Origin: a virus
DNA length: 28,631 bases
Reading direction: 5' to 3' (one strand)
Virus record (IMG/VR): IMGVR_UViG_3300020470_000155
Location: 1 to 28,631 of that record
Below the pieces are notes generated by a model. That model saw only the letters and a program-made list of their open reading frames with translations, searched no databases and had not been told where the DNA came from. Shown here in pieces: positions 13,536 to 28,631 of the stretch. The stretch's first letter is position 1. Each line of letters begins with the position of its first letter. Position numbers and translations under genes: made by a program.

Positions 13536-16500
13536 ATGGCATTAAATTTAAACGCATCACCATATTATGACGATTTTACAGAATCGTCAAAGTATCACAA
13601 GATCCTATTTAAACCAGGAGTTGCGGTACAAGCCAGGGAGCTAACACAATTACAGACTATATTACAAGACCAATTCCAAAAAGGTTTTAGTTTTGTAGTT
13701 CAAGAAGGTACTGTAATATCAGGTTGTTCCGAGATAACAAACAGATTAGAGTATATTAAAGTCAATGATACTGATAATGCCTCAGCAGCAATTGATAATA
13801 CAACTATGGCCAGCTTTGTTGGAGACACAGTAGGTGGTGGCACAACAGGAATAACAGCAGATATTGTTAGAGTAGCAACAGGAACAGAAGGTGCTGCCCC
13901 TTTAACTAAAACATTATATTTAAAATATACTTCACACGGCAGTCAAACAAAACACACATTTCAAGCATCAGAAGTATTAACAGTTACTTCTAGAGTTTCA
14001 GAAACAATAACCGTATCAGCAGGTGGTAGTGGTTATACAAGTGCACCAACAGTAGCATTTAGTGCACCAACAGGATCAGGACAAACAGAAAAAGCCACAG
14101 GTACAGCAACAGTATCAGGTGGTGCCGTTACAAAAATTACCTTAACAAATAAAGGTAAAGGTTATACAAGTGCACCTACTATTACATTAACAGGTGGTGG
14201 AGGCTCAAGTGCTACTGCTACAGCAACATTAGATAGTTCAAATGCAGGTAAAACATTTGTTGTAAGAACAACAACATCAGCAACAGTAGAAAAAGATAAC
14301 TTTTTTGGAATAGCACCTTTAGTTAAATTATCAGAAGGTATTATATATGCTAGAGGAGCATTTATAAAAACAGACGCATTAGATGTATTAATTAATCCTC
14401 ATGGTGTATCTGGAGATAAAAAAGTAGGTTTTGTTGTTACAGAAGCAGCAGTTAACTCTGCAACAGATACAACACTATTAGATCCTGCAGCAGGGTCTTA
14501 CAACGCTAATGCTCCAGGAGCAGATAGATTAAAATTAACTGTATCCTTAGCATCATATTCTAAAACAGATACAATACCTGAAAACTTCTATACCTATATG
14601 CAATACACCAATGGTATAGCAAGAAGGTCACAAACAAAAGAAAATCCTTTAGCTGGTTTAGGACAAATACTAGCAAACAGAACAATGGACGAGTCGGGTA
14701 ACTACGTCGTTAAAGGATTACAAGTAACAATAAGAGAACATTTAGAAAACGCAGCAAAAACAAATGGTGGTTATTTACCAGCTGCTCTAGGCGGTCAAAG
14801 TCATTTGTTGGCAGCAGAAATTTCACCAGGTAAAGCTTATGTAGGTGGATTTAAAAGAGAATTACTTTCATCTAAAAGAATTCAGATTGTTAAACCTAAA
14901 GATACTAAATGGATAGCAGATCAAACAATATCAACATCATCAGGAACTTATGTAGAAGTTAATGAAATGTGTGGTTATTGGGATATTGATAGTGGTTCAG
15001 TAGTAGATTTATATGGATCAGCACAGGATGCTGTTTCAGGTGGAGCACATTCAGCAGATTCATTAACAGGTAGTATTGTTGGTAAGGCAAGAGTTAAAAG
15101 TATTAAATATTCATCAGGTACAGTAGGTGCTGCAGCAGCGGTATTTAGACTTTATCTATATGATATAAAAATGGCTTCCGGAGATTTCTCAGCAGTTAAA
15201 TCAATTGTATATGAACATGCAGAGACAAGAGGAATTGCAGACACAGTTTTAGATGGAGATAGTAAAGCTACACTTAAAGAAGCAGAACTTAACAAACAAC
15301 TATACAGATTACCTAGATCTAATGTTAGAACTATAAAAACAGCAAGTTCAGGTACTGCTTATGATAACAGCTTTACATACTTAAAAGAATTTGATGGAAC
15401 ATTAGATGCTTCCCAAGGTAATATAACAATTACTACATCTGGTGATGAAACATTTAACGTTTCAGGAACTTTAACAGATACACAAATTTTAGATAACTTT
15501 ACATTAATAGCAAAAGATGGTTATACACAAAACTCTGCTACTATAGATGAAGGTCAAATGATTGACTTAACATCATCTAATTCTGACGCATCGGTAACAG
15601 TTAACAGCGGAACATCAGTTACTATTGATTTAGGTGGTGCAGTTACAGGTGCCAATAGAGGTGTTAGAATATATGCTATTGTAAAGAAAACAAATGCAAC
15701 ACCAATGGCAAAAGCATTGGCATCAAGCAGATATGTAAAAATTGATACGGGCACTCACTTAAATGGTGCAAGTGGACCGTTTAGTTTAGGAATACCTGAT
15801 GGTTGGAAATTAGAAACTCTTACAGCAGGAACAAATTCAGACTACACAACAGGACAAACAGATGTTTCAAGTGAATTTAAATTTGACACAGGACAAAATG
15901 ATAACTTCTATGGACACGCAACACTATTTAAGAAGTCTTCAAGTACAACAGACTTTTCAACAAATAGATATATTGTAGCTAAGTTTACACACTTCACTCA
16001 TACAAAAACATCAGCAACATATTTTACTGTTGATTCATATCCAGTAAATGATGCAACAGATACATTTAGAACTGAAGATATACCTATATACAATTCAGTT
16101 AAACATGGAGATTTTGATTTAAGAAATTGTTTAGACTTCCGTCCGTTAGCAGTGGCAACAGCAACTTCAACAGCAACATTAGGAAGTGCAACAGTTAATC
16201 CAGATTCAAGTGAAGTATTAGAATCAGCACTAACACAACCAAATCCATCAGGAACATTTACTACTGATCTATGGTATTATATTGGAAAGGGTGGTAGAGT
16301 TATATGTGACCAAGATGGTATATTTAGAGTAATATATGGCACACCTGAGGACACTCCTAATATTCCACCTGAACCAGAAAATACAATGTCGTTGGCAGAA
16401 TTTACTTTGCCTCCTTATCCAACATTGTCAATAGGTTCAGCAAGATTAGTAAATAGATTTGATTTATCAGTAAATATTAAACAAATAGAAAACAAACATT

Positions 16501-19500
16501 ATACGATGAAAGACATTAGTCAGTTAGAAAATCGTATATCAAATCTAGAATATTACGCATCACTTAACTTACTAGAGAAAGCAGCAAAAGACCAAAAGAT
16601 TGTTAATTCATCAGGTATCGATAGATTTAAAAATGGCATCTTAGTAGATCCATTTACAGGACATAATATAGGTTCAGTAACAAACCCTGACTATAATATT
16701 GCAATAGATGATAAAAAACAATTAGCAAGACCTTATTACGATGTAGAAAATATAAACTTAAAGTTAAATTCAACTAACTTTGGATTTACACAAAGAGGCG
16801 CATTAGTATCATTACCATTTGAACAAGTACCATTCATGCAACAAAATAAAGCAAGTGGTATTGTTAATGTTAATGGAGAAGACATACATGATTACTTTGG
16901 AGAAATGAATATTCAACCTCCAGTAGATAACTTTGTAGACATATCCACAAAACCAGATGTATTAGCTAATTTTGATGGCAACTATGATGCTTGGGAAAAA
17001 TATCACAACGATAATCCTTTTAAAACTTCTTGGGGAGCTTGGGAAAATGTTGGGGGTTCACGTGTTATAGCATCATCTGTTGATTCTGTAGATGTTAGAA
17101 GCGCAACAACAACAAGAACAGACACAATTTATACAAATACAGTTGAACAAAATCAAACAAGAACAGGTGTTAGGACAACAGTTACACCACAAACAAATGA
17201 ACAACGACTAGGACAAAAAGTAGTTAATGCTTCTTTAGCACCTTTTATGAGAAGTATTGAACTTAACATAACTATTTACAGACTTAAACCAAATACAAGG
17301 CACTATCCATTCTTTGATGGTAAACCTGTTACAGATCATTGTAAAAGAGGAGCAACATCAGCAGCAACATTAGGTGAAGCATTATATACAGATGCTTCAG
17401 GTACACTATCAATTAATTTTGTAATACCACAAGGAGAATTTAGAACAGGCCAAAGAGTATTCAAGGTAACAGATTCAAAAGTTAACAATGATAAAATAGC
17501 AAGATCAAGAGCCAGCGCTCTTTATGAGTCTACAGGATTACAACAAGAAGTTCAAGACACAATAATTTCTATGAGAACTGCTAATTTCTCATCAGTAACA
17601 TTTACAGATGATAGAACAATAACAGACACAAGTGTAGATAGAACAATAGGATCTGAGATACCTATTGAACCTGTACATCATTACAATCCACCAATGTCTC
17701 AGACTAGAAAACCAGAACCATCAGATCCGACGCCTCAAGATTCTAATGTAATTGGGTGTAACTTAGATGACAACAAAGACACAAGCCCAACTGGAGGTCA
17801 TAAAGACATAATCCCAGATCCAGATGCAATAGACTTAACATCGGATAATGATGACACTCCTTCTAATACCAATCAAGATAATGATACAGGAGAAGAAGAA
17901 AATTCTACTGATAATGTAACAAAAACCGATGATACACATGACAACACCGCAGACGTAGATCCAACTGGAACTAATAGTGAAGGAGATAATGTTGATGAAG
18001 ATCCTAATACAGGCGGTTATAGAATACATTCAAATACAGAAAACATTATGCACATTGGTTTCGAAGGTCCTCATGGTGCTATGCACTATGGAGGTAATAT
18101 AATGATGCCTATAGCAGGAGATCTTGATGTAACAGGTATAGTAGGAATTAGTGCAATTAGTTACAGTCCACCTGCACCAATAACACATACTAATAAAGCA
18201 TTGACGTATGTTAAAAAAGAAACCAGTAGTTTTGCATCACATGTATCCAGTTACAGTCCTATAGAAGGCGGTATATATGGCGAATTCGATGGCAACAGTT
18301 TAATGGAAGGTGGTTATCACGGTGGTGGTATGTATAATGCAGTTGAATTTGCATCACAATTAATGATGAAATGTCATGGACAAACTTTTAAAGTTACAGG
18401 AAAACCTGGTGGTGTTTATATAGATTCAATAGACTTGTTCTTTAAGAACAAACCATTAGATGTTGATACAGGAGTTACAGTAGAAATAAGAGAAGTAGTT
18501 AAAGGAATGCCTGGACCTAAGGTAGTACCACATGGTACAGCTTTTGTTAACAGAAATAACATTGGAGTATCACAAGAAGTTGGAGGTGTAACAACATTTG
18601 TTCCAACTAACTTTAAATTTGATTCATTAGTTTATCTTAAAAATAATACAACATATTGCTTTATTCCATCATCACTAAATTCAGTTAGTGGTTTTGATAT
18701 GTATATGGCAAAACTAGGAGACAATGAAGTAGGAACAACAACAAGAATAGATAAACAACCACATGAAGGTATGATGTTTACAAGTTCAACAGCACTAGGT
18801 GCTCAAGCAATACAAGATCAAGACTTGATGTTTAGAATATACAGAGCAAGATTTGATACTTCAGCAGCAATGACAGGTTCATGGAATAATGACCCTTCAG
18901 ATTATATAACATTTAAAGATTGGGGCAACAGTATAACAAAATTCCCAACAGGAGAATATATTAATGGATTTGATTTCACAATATCAAATGCAGGATCTGG
19001 TTATAGTAGTGCACCAACAGTAACAGTATCTGGAGGCGGAGGAACTGGACTTGCATTAACAGCAGTAATGGCAGGCTCTGGTTCAACTCAAACAGTTAGT
19101 AGTCTAACAATAGATACAAGTTCTGGATTCCCAAGTGGTTATACAAGTGCACCTACAATTACAATAGCAGCACCTGGTGGCGGTGGAACAACTGCTACAG
19201 CTACTGCAACATTAAATAGAGGTTATGTGGGTTGGTGTAATACTGCAGATGACTATGCAATAGTTAAAGTATTAGAGGGAAGTTTCCAAGCTAATGACGT
19301 ATTGTTTGGACCAGCAGGTTATGCAACAGTATCATCAATAGATAACAGAGTTCTTAATGATATAACAATGAACGCAGGTGTTCAAAATCCATATGGTACT
19401 CTACTATACGCAGAAATGAAATTAACACCAACAGGTGCAGCAACTGAAACAAATTATATTCCGTTAGAGATAAACAAAACTCAAAAATTAAATAAAGAAT

Positions 19501-20342
19501 ACACTATATACAGTCGTTCAAACGAGGTAGCATCATATAGCGGTAATAACACAGCAGAAATAAGAATGACAATGCAGACATCATTAGACAATGTAAGCCC
19601 TGTTTTAGATATGTACCAATTTGATTTGTTGGGTATAACTAATAAAGTTAATAATGATTCAACAAATGAAACTAATCCTAAAGGAGGCAATGCTACTTCT
19701 AAATATATAACAAGGACGGTTGTATTAGAAGACGGGCAAGATGCAGAAGACATAAAAGTTTATTTAACAGCATCTATACCTAATACATCTAGCATAGAAG
19801 TTTATGGTAAGTTTTTACACGGTTCAGATGATGGTAATTTTGATGAAGATATTAACTGGACAAAACTTTCAACATCAACTAGCCCAGCAGAAAGAACAGA
19901 TGAGTTTGCAGAATATAGTTGGACAATACCTGCTAAATCAGGAGGTGTAGGCCTAAACGGATCTGGTGCATTAGAATATGATGTAGGAAGAATATCATCG
20001 ATAGCTGTTAGTGGGTCAATGTCAGGTTACAATAACATACCTACAATAACATTATCGGGTGGCGGTGGTTACGGAGCAACTGCCACAGCAACAGTCTCAG
20101 GTGGGGCAATAACAGCAATTAATGTTGTTAACCCTGGCAGAGGATATACAAGTGCTCCAACGGTTGCTATAACACCTCATGCTAGTGATTCATCAGCTAC
20201 AGGAGCTTCAGGAACCGCAACAGTAGGAACAACCACTTATACAGGATATAAATCCTTTGCAGTTAAAGTGGTGCCTTTAAGTTCAACAACAGTCTCTCCT
20301 CCTTTCTTTAAGGAGTTAAGAGCAATAGCATTACAGAGTTAA
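13536..20342 (+). CDS. Giant tail/baseplate structural protein, DUF4815-like, 2268 aa
   Basis: The N-terminus ([59 protein letters not shown]) is the start I associate with DUF4815 tail proteins of marine T4-like phages. It may anchor the protein to the baseplate. After a GSGY pair (156-233) come long beta-rich stretches. A conserved-looking segment [28 protein letters not shown] falls near 1240-1275. An acidic disordered linker follows at ~1382-1495, then a jelly-roll-like region ([32 protein letters not shown]) and two more GSGY pairs at ~1812-1894 and ~2152-2217. It occupies the T4 gene 9-12 region, so it probably supplies outer baseplate or fibre-attachment functions, but direct homology to gp9-gp12 is not seen. 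An AGGATAA ribosome site precedes the ATG. Confidence 0.8.
14001..14235 (+). repeat. GSGY-module tandem pair 5 (giant protein, N-terminal third)
   Basis: Residues ~156-233: [20 protein letters not shown] then [20 protein letters not shown] with SATATATL. Both units keep the Y-T-S-A-P-T loop. Confidence 0.85.
17680..18018 (+). other. Acidic, disordered linker inside the giant protein
   Basis: About 113 codons rich in Asp, Asn, Thr, Glu, Ser and Pro with almost no bulky hydrophobics, for example [20 protein letters not shown] and [20 protein letters not shown]. It separates the N-terminal two thirds from the C-terminal third. It could be a flexible tether, and the many Asp residues could bind Ca2+. 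Both roles are inference. Confidence 0.65.
18971..19218 (+). repeat. GSGY-module tandem pair 6 (giant protein, C-terminal third)
   Basis: Residues ~1812-1894: [20 protein letters not shown] then [20 protein letters not shown] with TTATATATL. The second unit is longer between its parts than in other pairs. Confidence 0.8.
19990..20185 (+). repeat. GSGY-module tandem pair 7 (giant protein, C-terminus)
   Basis: Residues ~2152-2217: [20 protein letters not shown] with ATATATV, then [20 protein letters not shown]. It lies within the last ~120 residues of the protein. Confidence 0.8.
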
Positions 20343-20587: not shown

Positions 20588-21091
20588 ATGGCAACAATAA
20601 CATTAAGATCAAGCAAAGGTAGCCCGCTTACTAATAATGAAGTAGACGCCAACTTTACAAATCTAAATACAGATAAGTACGAGTCAGGTAATAATATTTC
20701 GGCAGGAACATTGTCAGCGTCTTCTAATTTATCAGTATCAGGATCATCTACTTTAAGCGCTGCAACAGTATCGGCAGCAGGAACCACACAGGGTGCGGCA
20801 ACTGCTTTGACAAACACATTTAATATTGTTACATCAGCTACAGCATCATCAGCAGATAGTGTTAAACTACCTGACACAGCAACTGGTTTAGAAGTTACAG
20901 TAATGAATGACACCACAGCACTAATTAATATCTTCCCATCAACAGGCGAATCAATAGACGCAGGTTCGGCAAATGCAGGAGTTACATTAGCAGCAGGACA
21001 TACATTAAAATTAGTAGGCATTAGTTCTACAAAGTGGAACAGATTAAGCCCAGTTATTGTTTATGATAGTAGCGGTAGCAGAATAAATTAA
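20588..21091 (+). CDS. Virion protein resembling the N-terminal domain of T4 gp10, 167 aa
   Basis: A GGCAGGAGAC ribosome site precedes the ATG. The first ~35 residues (TLRSSKGSPLTNNEVDANFT, NLNTDKYE) match the pattern K-x-N-E-N-F-D-E-L-Y at the start of T4 gp10 and other tail adaptors. A Ser/Ala/Thr-rich stretch follows (33-75). A beta-barrel-like part then has SVKLPDTATGLEVTVMNDTT, INIFPSTGESIDAG and TLKLVGISSTKWNRLSP, echoing T4 gp10 strands TINLPKGT...VTLVAASGDTI...LVYCAPGRWEYV. T4 gp10 is 602 aa, so this would be only the N-terminal adaptor, with the rest missing or supplied by neighbours. The gene lies where T4 keeps genes 9-12. Similarity is remembered, not aligned. Confidence 0.6.
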   Translation: MATITLRSSKGSPLTNNEVDANFTNLNTDKYESGNNISAGTLSASSNLSVSGSSTLSAATVSAAGTTQGAATALTNTFNIVTSATASSADSVKLPDTATGLEVTVMNDTTALINIFPSTGESIDAGSANAGVTLAAGHTLKLVGISSTKWNRLSPVIVYDSSGSRIN

Positions 21092-21102
21092 GGGAATAGG
21101 CA

Positions 21103-22395
21103 ATGAGACCATTAAGAGTAAAAGCATCTGGATCGCCAGTTAGTTCTTCAAACTTCCAAGGTTTGCAGGAAATGACTGATGCCGAGATCGAGAAATATTA
21201 TTCAGCAATTATTACAAAAGATTTTGCAGACAATACAGACGGTACAGGTACTGCAGAATTAAATGTAACAACTAATGCTTCAGGTGCTGGAACTACTATT
21301 GGTACAGTAACCGATACAAAAAGAGATGACGCAGTAGGCACTCACCCTACAGATGGTGCTTCATCAACAGTTACTACATACACAGCAAAACAAGTAACAG
21401 GAGCAGCATCAGAAAGTATTACTAACAGACCTGTAGGTTGGGAAACATCAGGTAATGTAGGTATAAATGAATTTACAGATTCAGAGTTAGATTCAGACAT
21501 TATTGATAAAATAATAGCAGATATGGTTGGACAAGGAAACTATACTGTTGGTCAATATTCATTAAACGCAAGTTCACCAAGTGGTGGAACATGGACATCT
21601 AGATATACATTAGCAGATACATTAGTAGACGGCACAACCAATAACATGTATATTTGGCAAAAAACAGCAGCAACAACAGCAGCAGATGATGATCTTAAAC
21701 CTATAAAATTAGTTGAAACTTCAAACCTTAGAGAAATGACCGTTGCTGAGATGGAACAAATTGTTGCTAACTTTAGAAACAGAATTGTAGAAAACTTTTC
21801 TACAACACAAGGTGTTGGTACATATAAATTACAAGCTTCTACACCTAGTGAAACAGGGACTTGGACTCAAATGGGAGATGCAGCAGGATTTACAGATACA
21901 AAGAAAGACGTAGGTTCACAAAACTATACTGGAAGTTATAGTGGTGCTTATTCAGGAAACTATGCAGGTAATTACACAGGTCCAAAAACTTATGCAGGTA
22001 ATTACACAGGTCCAAAATCGTATGGAGGTAACTATTCAGGAACATCAGCATATGCAGGAACATATGGTGGTACATCAGGATATGCTAAAACATACGCAGG
22101 AGCATACTTACATGATTATGGTGGGTATGGCGGACCACCTAGTTACTCAGGAAACTATGTAGGATATTATACAGGACCTAAAAACTATACAGGTAACTAT
22201 ACAGGACCTAAGGTGTATGCAGGAGCATATACAGGAACATCAGCATATGCAGGAACTTACACAGGAACATCAGCATATGCAGGCACATATTCAGGAACAT
22301 TTACTGGTACATTCGAAGGAACATATGCAGGTGATACAATACTAAACACTAGCTCAACAGTCAGTACGGTAAAATTGTGGCTAAGAACTGCTTAA
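21103..22395 (+). CDS. Tail-fibre-like structural protein with Tyr/Gly decapeptide repeats, 430 aa
   Basis: The start has an AAGGGAATAGG ribosome site. The first ~270 residues contain duplicated helix-strand motifs: LQEMTDAEIEKYYSAIITKD, INEFTDSELDSDIIDKIIAD and LREMTVAEMEQIVANFRNRI. Each is followed by a beta part (GTGTAELNVT, TVGQYSLNAS, GVGTYKLQAS), so this part looks like three copies of one domain. The rest (273-~415) is a YAGNYTGPKT / YAGTYTGTSA repeat with no Cys or Lys-rich core. The last residues (TSSTVSTVKLWLRTA) are ordinary. It is the last gene before the next late promoter and is likely a surface-exposed appendage. Repeat expansion or contraction is expected to make its length variable. 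Confidence 0.7.
   Translation: MRPLRVKASGSPVSSSNFQGLQEMTDAEIEKYYSAIITKDFADNTDGTGTAELNVTTNASGAGTTIGTVTDTKRDDAVGTHPTDGASSTVTTYTAKQVTGAASESITNRPVGWETSGNVGINEFTDSELDSDIIDKIIADMVGQGNYTVGQYSLNASSPSGGTWTSRYTLADTLVDGTTNNMYIWQKTAATTAADDDLKPIKLVETSNLREMTVAEMEQIVANFRNRIVENFSTTQGVGTYKLQASTPSETGTWTQMGDAAGFTDTKKDVGSQNYTGSYSGAYSGNYAGNYTGPKTYAGNYTGPKSYGGNYSGTSAYAGTYGGTSGYAKTYAGAYLHDYGGYGGPPSYSGNYVGYYTGPKNYTGNYTGPKVYAGAYTGTSAYAGTYTGTSAYAGTYSGTFTGTFEGTYAGDTILNTSSTVSTVKLWLRTA
21921..22340 (+). repeat. 30-bp minisatellite encoding the Tyr/Gly decapeptide
   Basis: Units of 30 bases encode Y-A-G-x-Y-[TS]-G-x-x-x. The copies at 21961-21987 and 21991-22017 are identical over 27 bases. A 23-base block at 22231-22253 recurs exactly at 22261-22283. 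Half-units of 12 bases (YSGx) open the array. The near-identity indicates recent duplication by slippage or recombination. Confidence 0.9.
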
Positions 22396-22431: not shown

Positions 22432-22929
22432 ATGGCGAAGAATCAACCAAAAGTTGAACGTATAACAAACGAAGATCCCAAACCAAAAAAATACGAATAT
22501 CGAGATCCTTATTGGTCTAATAAAGATAACGAGCATATGATCGTTACTTTAGAATATCCCGATGGTAGGAAATCTACAGCATCAATAACGGGAAAAGATA
22601 ATCCTGATTTTAAAGCTGTTATAGAACAGTTTGGTGAAAAGACTTTAGATGAGAATACAGCGGAAGGCATCAAAAGACGTGATACTCAAATAAAACAAAG
22701 ATTAGAAAGAAGAGAATCACAAGCTGCTAGACAACAACAAGAAGTATTATTCAATGCAAAGTTAGAAGCATTTGAAATTGAAGCAGTTAAAGACTCTAAA
22801 AATACACCACTCAAAAGACTTATTCGTAAAGCAAAAACTCCATTAGAAGTAACAGCATATACGACAATATTAATAACAGATCAATTGAAGGCAACAGGTG
22901 TATTAGATGGCAAAAAGAAAAAGAAATAA
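22432..22929 (+). CDS. Basic helical protein of unknown function, 165 aa
   Basis: The first ~60 residues are charged with one beta hairpin (HMIVTLEYPDGRKSTASITG). A long Arg/Gln/Glu helix follows (RRDTQIKQRLERRESQAARQ), probably a coiled coil. The C-terminal ~50 residues contain LKRLIRKAKTPLEVTAYTTI and LITDQLKATGVLDG. The protein ends in five lysines. The lysine-coding A-rich end overlaps the glycosyltransferase start by 23 bases in another frame. I do not recognise the family beyond its recurrence after fibre genes in marine T4-like phages. A virion-associated or fibre-related role is conceivable. Confidence 0.7.
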   Translation: MAKNQPKVERITNEDPKPKKYEYRDPYWSNKDNEHMIVTLEYPDGRKSTASITGKDNPDFKAVIEQFGEKTLDENTAEGIKRRDTQIKQRLERRESQAARQQQEVLFNAKLEAFEIEAVKDSKNTPLKRLIRKAKTPLEVTAYTTILITDQLKATGVLDGKKKKK

Positions 22930-23698
22930 TATACCAGACAATGGTTTCTTAATTGTTGCCAGTTTATATAATCCTTTTTACAAAGCAGCTATTGAACTAG
23001 CAGAGTCAATTAAATTATTTTATCCAGAAACACATGTTACAATATTTATAGATTCATCTGAAATACAGTACCTGTGGAAAGAAAAATTAAATACATTACC
23101 ATTTAAAGCATCCTCAGATTGGTATGAACATATAGATCAAATGGTTTCAACAGATGTGCCTAAACATATAAGAGCTAAACTTTGGGCATTAAGTAAAACA
23201 CCATACAAAGGCAAAACAGTTTATTTAGATGCTGATATGATGTGTGAACATGAAGATGTAGAAAACATATTTGATCAACTAACAGATGATTTAGATTTAT
23301 TATTTACAAAAATAAGACCTTATAATGCTAAGGTAACAAAACTTACAAACACAGAAGAAATGACAGCCCATTGTGGTATGTTTATATACAGAAATAATCC
23401 TCAAACAATTACCCTAATGGAATCTTGGTATGGGGAATATTTAAAACAAACTGAAAAAACAAATAAAGGTGGTTGGGTTAATACAATAGGACAGTATCCA
23501 GATGATGTTAGAAAGTGGGATACTTTTACAATGTGGAAATTATTAACATATAGTGATCATGGTGTCAGGTGGGACGATAATTTACATTGCCGTTGGAATT
23601 TTGTAAATGGTTATCATCCTAATGAGTTAGAAGATTTAGATAGAGTATTTTATCATTATACTATACCGGAGCATGTTATACACGCTAAAAAGAAATGA
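22907..23698 (+). CDS. Glycosyltransferase, GT-A fold (GT8-like)
   Basis: The 263-residue product starts with a basic MAKRKRNN leader, then a Rossmann-type strand and helix (GFLIVASLYNPFYKAAIELA-ESIK) and THVTIFID. HIRAKLWALSKTPYKGKTVY precedes the LDADM motif with a D-x-D at residues 108-110, which in GT-A enzymes binds the metal and nucleotide-sugar phosphates. Later features typical of GT8-like proteins are THCGMFIYRNN-type strands (TAHCGMFIYRNN), GGWVNTIGQYPDDV and a C-terminal VFYHYTIPEHVIHAKKK with a metal-ligand-like His. It might glycosylate virion proteins, lipopolysaccharide or DNA; the substrate cannot be read from sequence. The gene overlaps its upstream neighbour by 23 bases and its downstream neighbour by ATGA. 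Confidence 0.75.
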   Translation: MAKRKRNNIPDNGFLIVASLYNPFYKAAIELAESIKLFYPETHVTIFIDSSEIQYLWKEKLNTLPFKASSDWYEHIDQMVSTDVPKHIRAKLWALSKTPYKGKTVYLDADMMCEHEDVENIFDQLTDDLDLLFTKIRPYNAKVTKLTNTEEMTAHCGMFIYRNNPQTITLMESWYGEYLKQTEKTNKGGWVNTIGQYPDDVRKWDTFTMWKLLTYSDHGVRWDDNLHCRWNFVNGYHPNELEDLDRVFYHYTIPEHVIHAKKK

Positions 23699-24351
23699 AG
23701 TTTATAGATATATCAGATGAATTGTTAGAAATGTTAGAGCCATATTCGGATTGGTTCTTCAAACAGGACCTAACACATTTGATAGAAATGTCTGAACAAA
23801 ATCCAAAAAATACAGGTGAGAGTTTAGAGTATTGTTGCAGTGAAGAATACTTAGATGTTATTGTTACAAAAGATGGTAGACATGAAGGGTATCCTGAAAT
23901 ATCATATAGCTGTGATATAATGGAAAACTCTGGAAAGATAGACAAAAATTTTAAAGAACCACAGAAAGAATTACAAACAAAATTAACACAATGGTTAGGA
24001 GCAAGGAATGAAGCGGTTCATGTATTTTATCCTGTCAATGGTTTTATGGGGTGGCATAATAATTGGAATGCCCACGGTTATAACATACTTCTTTCTTACA
24101 CAGAAAACGGAGGAGGGTTCTTTAAATACAGAGACCCAAAAACACATGAAGTGGTTCACTTACAGGACCCTGGTGGGTGGTCATGCAAAGTAGGTTATTA
24201 TGGTAGGGGTCGAGAACCTGATAAAGTTTACTACCATTGCGCTGGAACTACAGAGCCTAGAGTGACCCTAGGGTATGTTATACCCCACCTAGAACTCTGG
24301 AGGGACATGTGTAGCGATATTTCGGGGCAAGACTGCTATAATTTTGAATAA
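23695..24351 (+). CDS. 2OG-Fe(II) oxygenase-like protein with atypical metal triad
   Basis: The 218-residue protein has the order of a double-stranded beta-helix oxygenase. GFMGWHNNWNAHGYNILLSY puts a His at 121, but with Asn at 123 where Asp/Glu is usual. A strand with GGGFFKYRDPKTHEVVHL follows, then a distal VYYHCAGTTEPRVTLGYVIP with His181 and Arg189, in the places of the second metal His and the 2-oxoglutarate-binding Arg. If the motif assignment is right, the facial triad is H-x-N...H, so the enzyme could be altered, use a water ligand, or be inactive. Related HTN-type proteins occur in marine T4-like phages from memory. Translation is coupled to the glycosyltransferase through ATGA, so the two may act on the same target. 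Confidence 0.5.
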   Translation: MKFIDISDELLEMLEPYSDWFFKQDLTHLIEMSEQNPKNTGESLEYCCSEEYLDVIVTKDGRHEGYPEISYSCDIMENSGKIDKNFKEPQKELQTKLTQWLGARNEAVHVFYPVNGFMGWHNNWNAHGYNILLSYTENGGGFFKYRDPKTHEVVHLQDPGGWSCKVGYYGRGREPDKVYYHCAGTTEPRVTLGYVIPHLELWRDMCSDISGQDCYNFE

Positions 24352-25194: not shown

Positions 25195-25349
25195 AACTAA
25201 TTGGATTTATAACACTACTATATCTTGCAATAAGATTTTTCCCGCAGATATTAATGTTAGCTTTTCAAATGTTTTTGATACTTGCTATTATAGTATTAGG
25301 ATTCTTAGCATTCGAATTTATTTACGGTTATATTTACTTTCGAATCTAA
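25188..25349 (+). CDS. Small membrane protein, 53 aa
   Basis: An ATG seven bases before the upstream gene's stop opens 53 codons: MLELIGFITLLYLAIRFFPQ, ILMLAFQMFLILAIIVLGFL, AFEFIYGYIYFRI. It is almost wholly hydrophobic, with one or two membrane helices broken by R-F-F-P-Q, and a positively charged end. The overlap with the upstream gene and in-operon position support that it is real. The A-rich TTAAAAAG before it is a weak ribosome site, so translation is probably coupled. Its 3' end overlaps the 3' end of the opposite-strand 91-aa gene by 32 bases. A holin- or inner-membrane-acting role is possible but not shown. Confidence 0.6.
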   Translation: MLELIGFITLLYLAIRFFPQILMLAFQMFLILAIIVLGFLAFEFIYGYIYFRI

Positions 25350-25593
25350 GTCTGATTAATGCTTTTCTTACAATAGCAATACCAGTCAATCCCAAAAAAT
25401 TTATAAACGCAGCCATCTCAGACGAGGTGCCTGCGTAGTCAATGCATGCCTTGATAATTGCAACACTCAATGGGAACATAATTATTGCGCCTATTGCAGT
25501 ATCAACTGTTGACTCGTGAAGTGCTCTTCTTAATCTTTTACTTTGAACCAATTGCCATAAACCTTTCAAAATATACTTTACCATTCCAATCAT
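25318..25593 (-). CDS. Small two-helix membrane protein, 91 aa
   Basis: After a basic amphipathic start (MVKYILKGLWQLVQSKRLRR) there are two hydrophobic segments, AIGAIIMFPLSVAIIKACID and AFINFLGLTGIAIVRKALIR, then a basic tail. The layout of Q-S-K-R, a first membrane helix starting T-A-I-G, a second membrane helix and R-K-A-L-I-R-L-R-F resembles the small phage membrane family annotated DUF7220; this is from memory and uncertain. The first ~50 bases overlap the end of the methyltransferase-like gene. The start could be the ATG at 25593 or the one at 25584. It is last in the minus-strand operon and converges on the 53-aa membrane protein. Confidence 0.65.
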   Translation of the reverse strand: MIGMVKYILKGLWQLVQSKRLRRALHESTVDTAIGAIIMFPLSVAIIKACIDYAGTSSEMAAFINFLGLTGIAIVRKALIRLRFESKYNRK

Positions 25594-26206
25594 AGTAAAA
25601 TTGTTTTACCTTGCCAGAATAAAAAGTATCTTTCAACCCTGCATTTTCTATTAATGCTTTTTCACTATCCACACAATTAATACCATACATCTCTTCTATT
25701 ACATTCGAATTCTGTACAGCAAATATAGCGTGTTTGTTTGCAGTGGTTAATTCTTTTAATGGGTACATCTGTTCTGCTCCCATTGTGATTACTACATCTA
25801 CATTCAGTTGATTTAATTCATCAAAAGCAAAAGGAACATCTAAGTTCCAGTGATTTATTTTAATATATTCTTCTGCTATATAATGTTTATGGAATACTTT
25901 AGATAACTCTAGAGCTTCCTGATCTATATCAACTAAGTGTAATTCTCCTACTGATAAATTTTCACATAATAAAGGAACTAAAGGTATCCCTAACCAACTA
26001 TTTAAGATTAATATTTTAAACTGTTCGTCTTTCATATAATCTTCTAAGGATTTTTGTAGTTCTTCTACTAACCAAATACCAGCTTCCATTGTATTAGGAT
26101 TTAAACTTTGCCTAAAGTCATCATGCTTATGTTTCATTTCATGTTCAACTTTAGCGAGGCCTTCTCCCCAATATTTCATACTATTTAAAAAGTTAAAATT
26201 TAACAT
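25538..26206 (-). CDS. SAM-dependent methyltransferase-like protein, 222 aa
   Basis: The ATG at 26206 (MLNFNFLNSMKYWGEGLAKV) is chosen because GCAAAGAAG precedes it and the overlap with the upstream gene is then only 14 bases; an ATG at 26263 would overlap by 71. A Rossmann-like core follows a helical start: FKILILNSWLGIPLVPLLCE at motif I, LHLVDIDQEALELSKVFHKH with the acidic residue that usually binds the SAM ribose, and VDVVITMGAEQMYPL at the motif IV place. Motif I is degenerate (N-S-W-L-G-I instead of D-x-G-x-G), so SAM binding is uncertain. The substrate is unknown. It lies between glycosyltransferase and membrane-protein genes in one overlapping operon. Confidence 0.55.
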   Translation of the reverse strand: MLNFNFLNSMKYWGEGLAKVEHEMKHKHDDFRQSLNPNTMEAGIWLVEELQKSLEDYMKDEQFKILILNSWLGIPLVPLLCENLSVGELHLVDIDQEALELSKVFHKHYIAEEYIKINHWNLDVPFAFDELNQLNVDVVITMGAEQMYPLKELTTANKHAIFAVQNSNVIEEMYGINCVDSEKALIENAGLKDTFYSGKVKQFYYDWNGKVYFERFMAIGSK

Positions 26207-26873
26207 CTTCTTTGCGTCCCATTGAATCAAATAAACAGACATATGGTATTTGTCTGAATACATGCGTTTCTACATCATGTGGAAATATATAGCCATAGTT
26301 ATAACTATAAAACCACCCTAAAGGAAAGTATTTAATTCTTGCTACACCTTTGTGCATAAAGAAGTTATCTAATCCCCTATAGTACCATAAGATTTTTTCT
26401 TTGTGTGCTTTAAAATAAAGAGTAATATTTTCTTTATCTAAGTTATCATTCCATCTTAATATACTAGAATTTAAATCTGTATATCTGTGAGGAACATGTT
26501 CTGTTTCTTTTGCTTGTGTTTCTAAATCGTGCCAATGTGTCTGTCCAAAACATAAACAATCCTCAGGATCAAAGTTCGCTATATCATCTATGTTCTTTTG
26601 TATAATAATATCTAGATCAAAGAAAAGATTCTCTCCTTTTTGTCTAACAACATTATCATCAAACAGATACATTTTGTTCCACCATTTTTCTAATTTGTTA
26701 TCTGCTGGAAAAGGAATAACATTAATATCCTTATCCAGTCCTTGTTCTTTTTCTGTTAGACAGTAAAATGTAAAATCTTGTGTAATATACTCTTTACAAG
26801 ATTCGTATATTTGATTAACATGTTTAGCAGAATATTTACTGCCCCATTTTACTGTATAAATGTTCATTGCCAA
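26193..26873 (-). CDS. Glycosyltransferase-like protein, paralogue of the next gene upstream, 226 aa
   Basis: The protein opens with a strand and K-W-G-S-K-Y loop (IYTVKWGSKYSAKHVNQIYE), then FTFYCLTEKEQGLDKDINVI-PFP. A glycosyltransferase D-x-D motif follows in LFFDLDIIIQKNI (D86, D88). The same blocks occur in the same order in the gene immediately upstream in the operon, so the two arose by duplication. This copy lacks the ~30-residue insert before the D-x-D that its paralogue has. The C-terminal half (YRGLDNFFMHKG, FPLGWFYSYNYGYIFPHD, PYVCLFDS) also matches its partner. The start may be ATG 26873 or 26867; either overlaps the upstream stop. Substrate unknown. Confidence 0.7.
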   Translation of the reverse strand: MAMNIYTVKWGSKYSAKHVNQIYESCKEYITQDFTFYCLTEKEQGLDKDINVIPFPADNKLEKWWNKMYLFDDNVVRQKGENLFFDLDIIIQKNIDDIANFDPEDCLCFGQTHWHDLETQAKETEHVPHRYTDLNSSILRWNDNLDKENITLYFKAHKEKILWYYRGLDNFFMHKGVARIKYFPLGWFYSYNYGYIFPHDVETHVFRQIPYVCLFDSMGRKEDVKF

Positions 26874-27679
26874 TGCTTTAATAATTGTGGATCAACCAAA
26901 TCATTTTGTTTAACATGCCCTCTACCTTTAGTCATTTGTTTAGGTAGTAAGTCAATATTAAATACACAAAGAATAGGTGTTTCCCTATATATTTCTGTTT
27001 GCAAATCATCATCGTCCCAACTACGACCTCTATTATATGAGTAAGCATAGTCTGCTGGGAAATGATCCCATAATTTTTTACCCCAATCTCCCCATCGCCA
27101 ACTGTGGTAATTGTCTGTTCCGTCTGTATATGTAAACCATATCTTTTCTTGATTTTCTAAAACATCTTCCCATATACATTCTGCTTGGTCGTCGGACCAA
27201 ACTTGGCAACTGCCATTTGTATATGCTCCATGTGATAATTTAAATCTCCGCGTCTTCATTGGGCGCGGGTCTTGCCACCAACTTCTTAATTTAGTTGGTC
27301 TTTCCATATTATAGGTCAATAAAGGCTCTATATTATTTTGTATTATTATATCTAAATCAAAGAATATAAATCTACCTGTTGGTTTATCTTCTGCAAAATT
27401 ATGAGTATTGAAAACCATTGTTTTAGGTCTATCCCAACACCTTGCCATTCCATATTTAAAATCTTCTCCACCAAACCAATACTTAGGATGTATATTAGGT
27501 ATATCTGGAAAAGGTATTACTTTTACATCTTCATCTAAACCTTCAGCATCATCAGTATAACAATAGAAATGGAAATCATGTTTCTCATCACAATTTCTTC
27601 TTGCCATATTTTTTAATCTGTTTACAAAATGAGGACCATATCTTGTGCCCCATTTAGAACAAACTACATTAACTCTCAT
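26864..27679 (-). CDS. Glycosyltransferase-like protein, 271 aa
   Basis: It has the shared blocks VCSKWGTRYGPHFVNRLKNM, FHFYCYTDDAEGLDEDVKVI-PFP and FIFFDLDIIIQNNI with D-x-D at residues 108-110. The insert before the D-x-D (YWFGGEDFKYGMARCWDRPK) is missing from the paralogue. The C-terminal part is Trp- and Asp-rich (KLRSWWQDPRPM, TDGTDNYHSWRWGDWGKKLW, DYAYSYNRGRSWDDDD) and could form an unusual acceptor site. The fold should be GT-A with a metal-dependent nucleotide-sugar donor site. It overlaps the 78-aa gene upstream by 11 bases and its paralogue downstream by 10. The target may be phage particles, the host envelope or a small molecule. Confidence 0.72.
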   Translation of the reverse strand: MRVNVVCSKWGTRYGPHFVNRLKNMARRNCDEKHDFHFYCYTDDAEGLDEDVKVIPFPDIPNIHPKYWFGGEDFKYGMARCWDRPKTMVFNTHNFAEDKPTGRFIFFDLDIIIQNNIEPLLTYNMERPTKLRSWWQDPRPMKTRRFKLSHGAYTNGSCQVWSDDQAECIWEDVLENQEKIWFTYTDGTDNYHSWRWGDWGKKLWDHFPADYAYSYNRGRSWDDDDLQTEIYRETPILCVFNIDLLPKQMTKGRGHVKQNDLVDPQLLKHWQ

Positions 27680-27905
27680 AACCTGCCCTTGCTATTACAT
27701 AATTATCACCGTATTGCAAACCTGCGTCTGCTAACCAACCGGTTACAGCGATACATCTATCTTCGAAATTATCTATTTCCGAATGAATAATTATTGTTGA
27801 AAATTCTTCTTTTGCTACTCTTTTGACAAACTTTCTCATATCTAAATGTAGTTCTGGTTTATCAAAAGTACCTTCGATCACAATTCCATTTTTTATTTTT
27901 AACAT
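27669..27905 (-). CDS. Small HAD-like protein with altered catalytic motif, 78 aa
   Basis: The order is a first strand GIVIEGTF, helix LHLDMRKFVKRVAKEEF, strand STIIIHSE and then RCIAVTGWLADAGLQYGDNY-VIAR. This resembles the minimal HAD phosphatase layout, with D-x-D-G-T on strand 1, T/S after strand 2 and W-L-x-x-x-G-x-x-Y-D later. Here the first Asp is replaced by Val9 and the second by Glu11, while G12-T13 are kept. If the assignment is right, phosphatase activity should be lost, and the protein may bind rather than cleave a ligand. The similarity is weak and judged by eye. It overlaps both neighbours (7 and 11 bases) in the radical SAM / glycosyltransferase operon. Confidence 0.6.
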   Translation of the reverse strand: MLKIKNGIVIEGTFDKPELHLDMRKFVKRVAKEEFSTIIIHSEIDNFEDRCIAVTGWLADAGLQYGDNYVIARAGYES

Positions 27906-28631
27906 ATTCCACCTTGTTCATCATGTATAATTTTAGGATTTAATTTTAATAAGTTATTAAAATAACCCTTATAAAAATCATTAGTAAATATCTCTTCTAA
28001 TGTATAGTTATTTATATTGTTTTTAGACCAGTCATATAAGAAGTCTGTCTTGTGTTCAGGAGATGATTCTGCTGTTTCAATAGTTAAAGCAACATGCTTA
28101 CATGGGAAAACATTTCCTTTAGCACTTAAATAAAACTGATTATTAACTTTACCCTCACACTTTACATGCGGACTAAATTTAATTTTTCGTTCTTTATATG
28201 TGTCGTCTTTTTTTCTGGTCTCTAGAGTTTCTAATTCTATTAGTTTATAGTCTGGTAACTCTTTTTTAATTACTTTTTTCTTAGGTACAACTTCTTCAGG
28301 TACCTCATCTACATATACAAAGCCTGTGAACTTATATTGTTTGCATAATTTCTTTGCTTTTTGTATATCATTATCTAATTGTCTAGTATGCGTATATGCC
28401 CAGAATACTCTACACCCTGTGTCAATTAATGATTTGGCATTTTCAAATATTCTTTTATCTGGATTACCTGTATTAATATTAAATGTTATGTTACCTGTTT
28501 CTTTAAATAACATACCAATATTATTCCACCATATAGGATCGTGATTAATACCTATAGTATCCATGTCAACACCTATACCCCATTCTTTCATAAAGTAATG
28601 AGCTATATCAAACATTTCTGGATTGTCTGTT
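27899..28631 (-). CDS. Radical SAM protein with SPASM-like C-terminus, cut by the right edge
   Basis: The frame is open to the window edge (TDNPE before the first internal Met at 28615), so this is the 3' part of a longer gene. T-D-N-P-E is typical of the segment after the GGEP motif of radical SAM proteins. NIGMLFKETGNITFNINTGN and CRVFWAYTHT would be later barrel strands. The C-terminal part has HVKCEG, QFYLSAKGNVFPCKH and a final GGIC: the C...strand-G-x-V-x-P-C layout of SPASM domains that bind auxiliary iron-sulfur clusters. The diagnostic C-x3-C-x2-C lies off the edge and is unseen. A charged Lys/Glu linker (VPKKKVIKKELPDYKLIELE) separates the parts. It heads the minus-strand operon in this window. 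Confidence 0.68.
   Translation of the reverse strand, partial: TDNPEMFDIAHYFMKEWGIGVDMDTIGINHDPIWWNNIGMLFKETGNITFNINTGNPDKRIFENAKSLIDTGCRVFWAYTHTRQLDNDIQKAKKLCKQYKFTGFVYVDEVPEEVVPKKKVIKKELPDYKLIELETLETRKKDDTYKERKIKFSPHVKCEGKVNNQFYLSAKGNVFPCKHVALTIETAESSPEHKTDFLYDWSKNNINNYTLEEIFTNDFYKGYFNNLLKLNPKIIHDEQGGIC
28009..28016 (-). promoter_or_regulatory. Possible internal late promoter for the minus-strand glycosyltransferase genes
   Basis: On the minus strand a perfect TATAAATA lies inside the radical SAM gene, 103 bases before the 78-aa gene's ATG. It could give late transcription of the downstream modification genes. It may also be chance in AT-rich coding DNA. Confidence 0.35.

Follow-up and report, generated by a model that had tools for sequence, protein, structure and literature searches.

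Relation to described host recognition clusters

In its published description, the host recognition cluster of pelagimyophages is composed of fibres and several glycosyltransferases, among which glycosyltransferase family 8 (GT8) is the most represented, and it includes radical S-adenosylmethionine (SAM) cassettes (PMC7029224). The GT8 genes are proposed there to act in O-chain modification and the avoidance of coinfection. Here we analysed a complete virus record of 28,631 bases with a G+C content of 34% (IMGVR_UViG_3300020470_000155, hereafter the window), which ends in a cassette of six overlapping minus-strand genes. The first of these, cut by the contig end, encodes part of a GT8 / radical SAM-SPASM-like fusion protein that has apparently lost its enzymatic function. 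The locus resembles the published cluster of the HTVC008M group in its T4-like phage background, in having VrlC beside fibres, and in its GT8-type glycosyltransferases and radical SAM genes. The published text found by search, however, has no mention of a fused GT8 / radical SAM protein devoid of catalytic motifs, and the gene order of the present cassette is conserved and not hypervariable.

Pelagibacter phage Mosig EXVC030M (MT647606) has a comparable cluster (Mosig_00082 to 00094), which also adjoins fibre and VrlC genes. It encodes weak homologs of two cassette glycosyltransferases, designated GT-C and GT-D (Mosig_92, 94), and of the cassette methyltransferase (Mosig_90). The radical SAM proteins of Mosig, in contrast, retain the CX3CX2C motif (Mosig_84 with 85, Mosig_88), and its cluster has aminotransferase, carbamoyltransferase and nitroreductase genes, none of which were seen here. 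No report of a radical SAM pseudoenzyme, or of a glycosyltransferase-radical SAM fusion, in phages was found among the titles listed by searches of an open-access library. The locus type is known, and its new and apparently unreported part is the conserved GT8 / radical SAM-SPASM fusion lacking either motif. An earlier interpretation made without database searches (the sequence-only reading) had taken this locus as the likeliest place in the window for an undescribed pathway. This was too strong, as the region type, the GT8 genes and the radical SAM cassettes already appear in PMC7029224.

A conserved fusion protein without either catalytic motif

The window contains the C-terminal 243 aa of the fusion (27899-28630, minus strand). 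In IMG/VR relatives the truncated gene is complete, at ~495 aa, and one of these relatives (L127:4817-6301) is 95% identical to the window's part. An AlphaFold2 model built from 37 sequences had a mean predicted local distance difference test score (pLDDT) of 81. Residues 1-202 matched GT8 structures (3tzt, Z 10.4, 188 aligned, 5.5 Å), while residues 202-488 matched radical SAM/SPASM enzymes (PqqE, Z 17.8, 223 aligned, 3.1 Å) and formed the partial TIM barrel followed by a SPASM/twitch domain that defines that fold. The GT-A fold of 3tzt, GlyE and glycogenin was recovered at Z 9-10 and that of PqqE, SuiB and SkfB at Z 15.8-17.8, and Foldseek returned both kinds of protein (GlyE and SuiB, E 2e-6). 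At the sequence level, the profile of the neighbouring glycosyltransferases reached the fusion N-terminus (hhalign E 8e-6), and a glycosyltransferase hidden Markov model matched it in 5/10 records (E 7e-6 to 6e-4). The radical SAM model PF04055 matched one fusion copy (G009, E 2e-6), under the cut-off and over model positions 46-116 only. The SPASM-like tail of the window's part was likewise under the Pfam cut-off (19.6 versus 21.5), and a PDB sequence search with the fusion profile found nothing significant.

Both catalytic motifs are lost. At the DxD position of the glycosyltransferase domain, where 3tzt, GlyE and glycogenin have the motif and the separate glycosyltransferase paralogs keep DLD, the fusion reads an invariant TPN (37/37 full-length representatives). 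The core CX3CX2C of PqqE, SuiB and SkfB, the motif that binds the SAM-cleaving 4Fe-4S cluster at the start of the barrel, was found in 0/37 representatives in the alignment, which covers the stretch missing from the window itself. Unlike these enzymes, the fusion is also joined to a GT8-like domain. The sequence-only reading had called this gene radical SAM/SPASM and had staked the call on a motif lying beyond the contig edge. Relatives that supply the missing part show none. The SPASM-like tail is supported by the fold and the sub-cut-off Pfam match; the functional enzyme was not confirmed, and a catalytic radical SAM enzyme was rejected on the absence of the core motif. In this phage lineage, the label 'radical SAM/SPASM protein' is an annotation trap and should not be equated with radical chemistry.

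Some cysteines of the SPASM part are nevertheless retained. CX13GX4C, shared with PqqE, SuiB and SkfB, is kept in 34/37 representatives (C410 in 37/37, C429 in 34/37), further cysteines of this part, which in SPASM domains serve auxiliary Fe-S clusters, being mostly lost, and a C-terminal Cys is present in 36/37. Two distant copies (L126:6270-7772 and L169:726-2231, ~43%) retain more SPASM-type cysteines and have a C-terminal CX3CX2C near residue 490, yet are without the core motif. These features, together with the retained fold, are what would be expected if the fusion were still a radical SAM enzyme with unusual cluster ligands, or an enzyme acting through a SPASM-type cluster alone. We consider this improbable. 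No substitute cysteine set was found near the barrel start, where even the most frequent Cys column within residues 200-260 is occupied in 5/37 representatives, and cleavage of SAM by an auxiliary cluster on its own is not known.

The RiPP maturases (for ribosomally synthesized and post-translationally modified peptides) SuiB and SkfB are among the closest folds of the fusion, which would fit a pathway producing a modified peptide. The sequence-only reading had suggested modification of a peptide, a surface glycan or host metabolites; glycan-type chemistry is supported, and the peptide route is largely refuted and very unlikely. CX3CX2C is absent, no precursor-like open reading frame (ORF) was seen beside the fusion in L002 or in the mapped distant loci, and the sole small neighbour (78 aa) is predicted to fold.

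Despite the loss of motifs, complete fusion copies stay open, at 488-512 aa, and are under purifying selection, with ratios of non-synonymous to synonymous substitution (dN/dS) of 0.06-0.12 between close relatives, a rough estimate from simple Nei-Gojobori counts on few pairs. Low dN/dS and open copies indicate conservation, and random decay was rejected on the same grounds. We favour the view that the fusion is a pseudoenzyme of two domains, kept by selection and perhaps serving as a scaffold.

A control search for Radical_SAM in ten long relatives gave nine matches in G001 (170 kb) and seven in G005, and all 16 ORFs read at these places carry CX3CX2C. Intact radical SAM paralogs therefore coexist with the fusion in these phages. 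The radical SAM part of the fusion can be aligned with one such protein, L243:2311-3426 (blastp E 2e-10, hhalign E 1e-13), from a point past the cysteine motif onward. This indicates that the fusion is kin to true radical SAM proteins but without their motif. The motif-bearing genes also occur in tandem arrays, of five at L236:2502-9232 (G001) and of six at L241:2939-10750 (G005).

Organization and conservation of the cassette

The six ORFs run from 28630-27899 to 25593-25318, with successive overlaps of 7, 11, 10, 14 (given a start at 26206) and 47-56 bases. The first three of these values equal the medians across ~100 related loci, so the layout is not due to chance. Apart from minor differences in starts, the six overlapping genes of the sequence-only reading were confirmed, and their coordinated production is supported by the overlaps and by the conserved order across relatives. 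Beyond the window edge, relatives in IMG/VR supply two more glycosyltransferase genes (~220 and ~260 aa).

GT-C (26864-27679, minus strand; relatives 79-99% identical) and GT-D (26193-26873, minus strand) both carry DLD in the window, and DxD was found in 56/56 and 50/50 distinct sequences, respectively. Pfam GT8 matched 4/19 glycosyltransferase members (best E 1e-4), and GT-D (P0004) matched PHROG 1962, 'glycosyltransferase', at 4e-10. With the weak Mosig homologs, these data make the assignment of both as glycosyltransferases, probably GT8-like, well supported from sequence, and the two glycosyltransferases recognized earlier were upheld. The next gene (25538-26206, minus strand) opens at 26263, though the alignment favours a start at 26206. 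Its product has weak Spermine_synth matches in 11/17 members, of spermidine synthase type, and its profile matches Mosig_90, annotated as a putative methyltransferase, at E 5e-8. NSWLG and VDID are conserved at the places of SAM-binding motif I and of the acidic residue after strand 2. The earlier methyltransferase call is thus moderately supported, and the product is probably a class I SAM methyltransferase.

Two small proteins complete the set. The 78-aa product of 27669-27905 (minus strand), called a degenerate haloacid dehalogenase (HAD) protein in the sequence-only reading, was modelled as beta-alpha-beta-alpha-beta (AlphaFold2, pLDDT 84). Its best fold match, a nucleotidyltransferase at Z 7.0, was not significant. 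The HAD identity was set aside as unsupported, since Pfam, PHROGs, NCBIfam and PDB sequences offered nothing in its favour and none of the fold matches was significant; the N-terminal DxD of HAD proteins is not conserved among 37 sequences, in which only G, L and Y are invariant. HAD chains were missing from the listed fold matches, although this does not exclude the fold. The 91-aa product of 25318-25593 (minus strand; alternative start 25584) is kept in relatives; hydrophobic stretches in the sequence alone suggest a membrane protein, with weak DUF7220 and PHROG 4276 matches. At the cassette end of two loci (L179:8741-9124 and L167:8741-9124), the place of this protein is taken by a 127-aa protein that by eye only resembles an A-type Fe-S carrier (GGCAGFEY). 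When PDB sequences were searched with profiles of the methyltransferase, the small protein and the glycosyltransferases, nothing significant was returned.

Of the loci that the GT-C query retrieved with 900 or more bases upstream, 73/73 have the fusion before GT-C, as do 65/67 of those from the methyltransferase query, L180 and L181 being the exceptions. This bears out co-occurrence in related phages, which the sequence-only reading had made a test of its proposal. Each locus sample comprised the 80 best matches of its scan and several contigs were in both samples, so these counts overstate conservation at larger distance. Among distant relatives, extra Methyltransf_24-type genes lie between GT-C and GT-D (L180:3500-4099, L181:6012-6611 and L179:6771-7391; the Pfam match was tested for L181), and their insertion indicates that the cassette is modular.

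The link to fibre genes is fixed. Among distinct loci with enough flank, fibre-type genes were found upstream of the cassette in 30/30 and downstream in 23/24, and the window's own two fibre-type genes (20588-22395, plus strand; 167 and 430 aa, assigned by context and composition) adjoin it in 20/24 and 23/24 distinct loci. VrlC was present in 5/6 long records, ~5-8 kb from the cassette. The region on the VrlC side thus holds fibres and glycosyltransferases, as a host recognition cluster does; the window stops within it, short of the neck gene gp14 that forms the other border of such clusters.

For cultured phages, a tblastn search of 50,697 phage records found nothing for the radical SAM-like part, GT-C or the methyltransferase, and the complete fusion gave chance-level matches only. 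In cellular genomes there was one relative, a fusion gene at L248:8001-9488. Its contig, of 11,980 bases and binned in a Flavobacteriales metagenome-assembled genome, probably comes from a phage and was misbinned.

Proposed role in glycan decoration

Our tentative preference is that the cassette serves glycan decoration in the host recognition region, with the fusion as a non-enzyme scaffold or acceptor-binding subunit. In a T4-like phage of pelagimyophage type, the genes would close a cassette for glycan decoration that lies within the tail fibre region. Four GT8-like glycosyltransferases, each with DxD, would work stepwise to build a short glycan, which the methyltransferase would probably tailor. 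The fusion, with two substrate-binding folds and no catalytic motifs, would hold the acceptor or the enzymes together; a scaffold or acceptor-binding subunit is its most likely role because both motifs are gone and both folds kept.

The likeliest acceptor would be an exposed portion of the fibres of the virion itself, whose genes lie on either side of the cassette. We lean to the virion fibres because the cassette has a fixed place between fibre genes, in a structural region. In some mycobacteriophages, virion proteins are glycosylated by phage enzymes whose genes lie close to the structural genes. The fullest form of this proposal, in which the pseudoenzyme is the substrate-presenting scaffold of a phage glycosyltransferase complex that sugar-coats its own receptor-binding fibres, is doubtful.

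Several points weigh against the proposal. Gene order, the absence of both motifs, purifying selection and the fixed link to fibre genes were observed, while a complex, its acceptor, the sugar and the methylation are inferred, and linkage to fibres would be expected for any gene of the region. The distant loci L180 and L181 have no fusion, and carry another methyltransferase-like gene within the cassette. The absence of motifs is also no proof of lost activity.

The acceptor may instead belong to the host, a host surface glycan being nearly as likely. During infection the cassette would then alter lipopolysaccharide, or some other glycan of the host surface, and so block coinfecting competitor phages, with the fusion as a helper subunit. 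We regard this as a realistic possibility. It agrees with the resemblance to the GT8 family and with the small membrane-type protein in the cassette, and host O-chain modification is the published view of pelagimyophage GT8 genes (PMC7029224), which counts against decoration of fibres. A host target is disfavoured by the location of the cassette, which is fixed between fibre genes and within the structural genes, and no sugar-nucleotide gene turned up in the window or in those loci whose cassette surroundings were read.

T4-like phages glycosylate DNA, and the glycosyltransferases could similarly modify phage DNA to escape restriction. This is very unlikely, as the GT8-like paralogs are arranged serially among fibre genes, outside a DNA metabolism module.

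If the scaffold proposal for the fusion is true, selection would have kept a radical SAM fold without catalysis and linked it to glycan decoration at the end by which marine phages adhere. The few, defined genes of the cassette offer a means of asking whether fibres or hosts are glycosylated by such phages.

Other genes of the window

T4-like baseplate genes were identified in the window by PHROG matches to the tail tube cap, wedge subunits and hub/tail lysozyme. The nearest cultured relative of baseplate gp6 is that of Pelagibacter phage HTVC008M (41%), followed by Methylophilales phages. From these relatives a SAR11-type host may be guessed, though it is unproven. A VrlC-like baseplate protein of 2268 aa (13536-20342, plus strand; PHROG 358, 1057 bits) borders the host recognition region, and in HTVC008M VrlC is annotated at the equivalent place.

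Two further genes lie on the fibre strand and mostly adjoin the cassette in relatives. The first, GT-E (22907-23698, plus strand), encodes a glycosyltransferase-like protein with a DAD motif and had no match in Pfam or PHROG. The second (23695-24351, plus strand) had no family match and resembles, by eye only, a 2-oxoglutarate-Fe(II) oxygenase. Its H-N-N ... H ... R pattern is invariant, so that the usual HxD would read HxN, and the protein may be inactive or of another kind.

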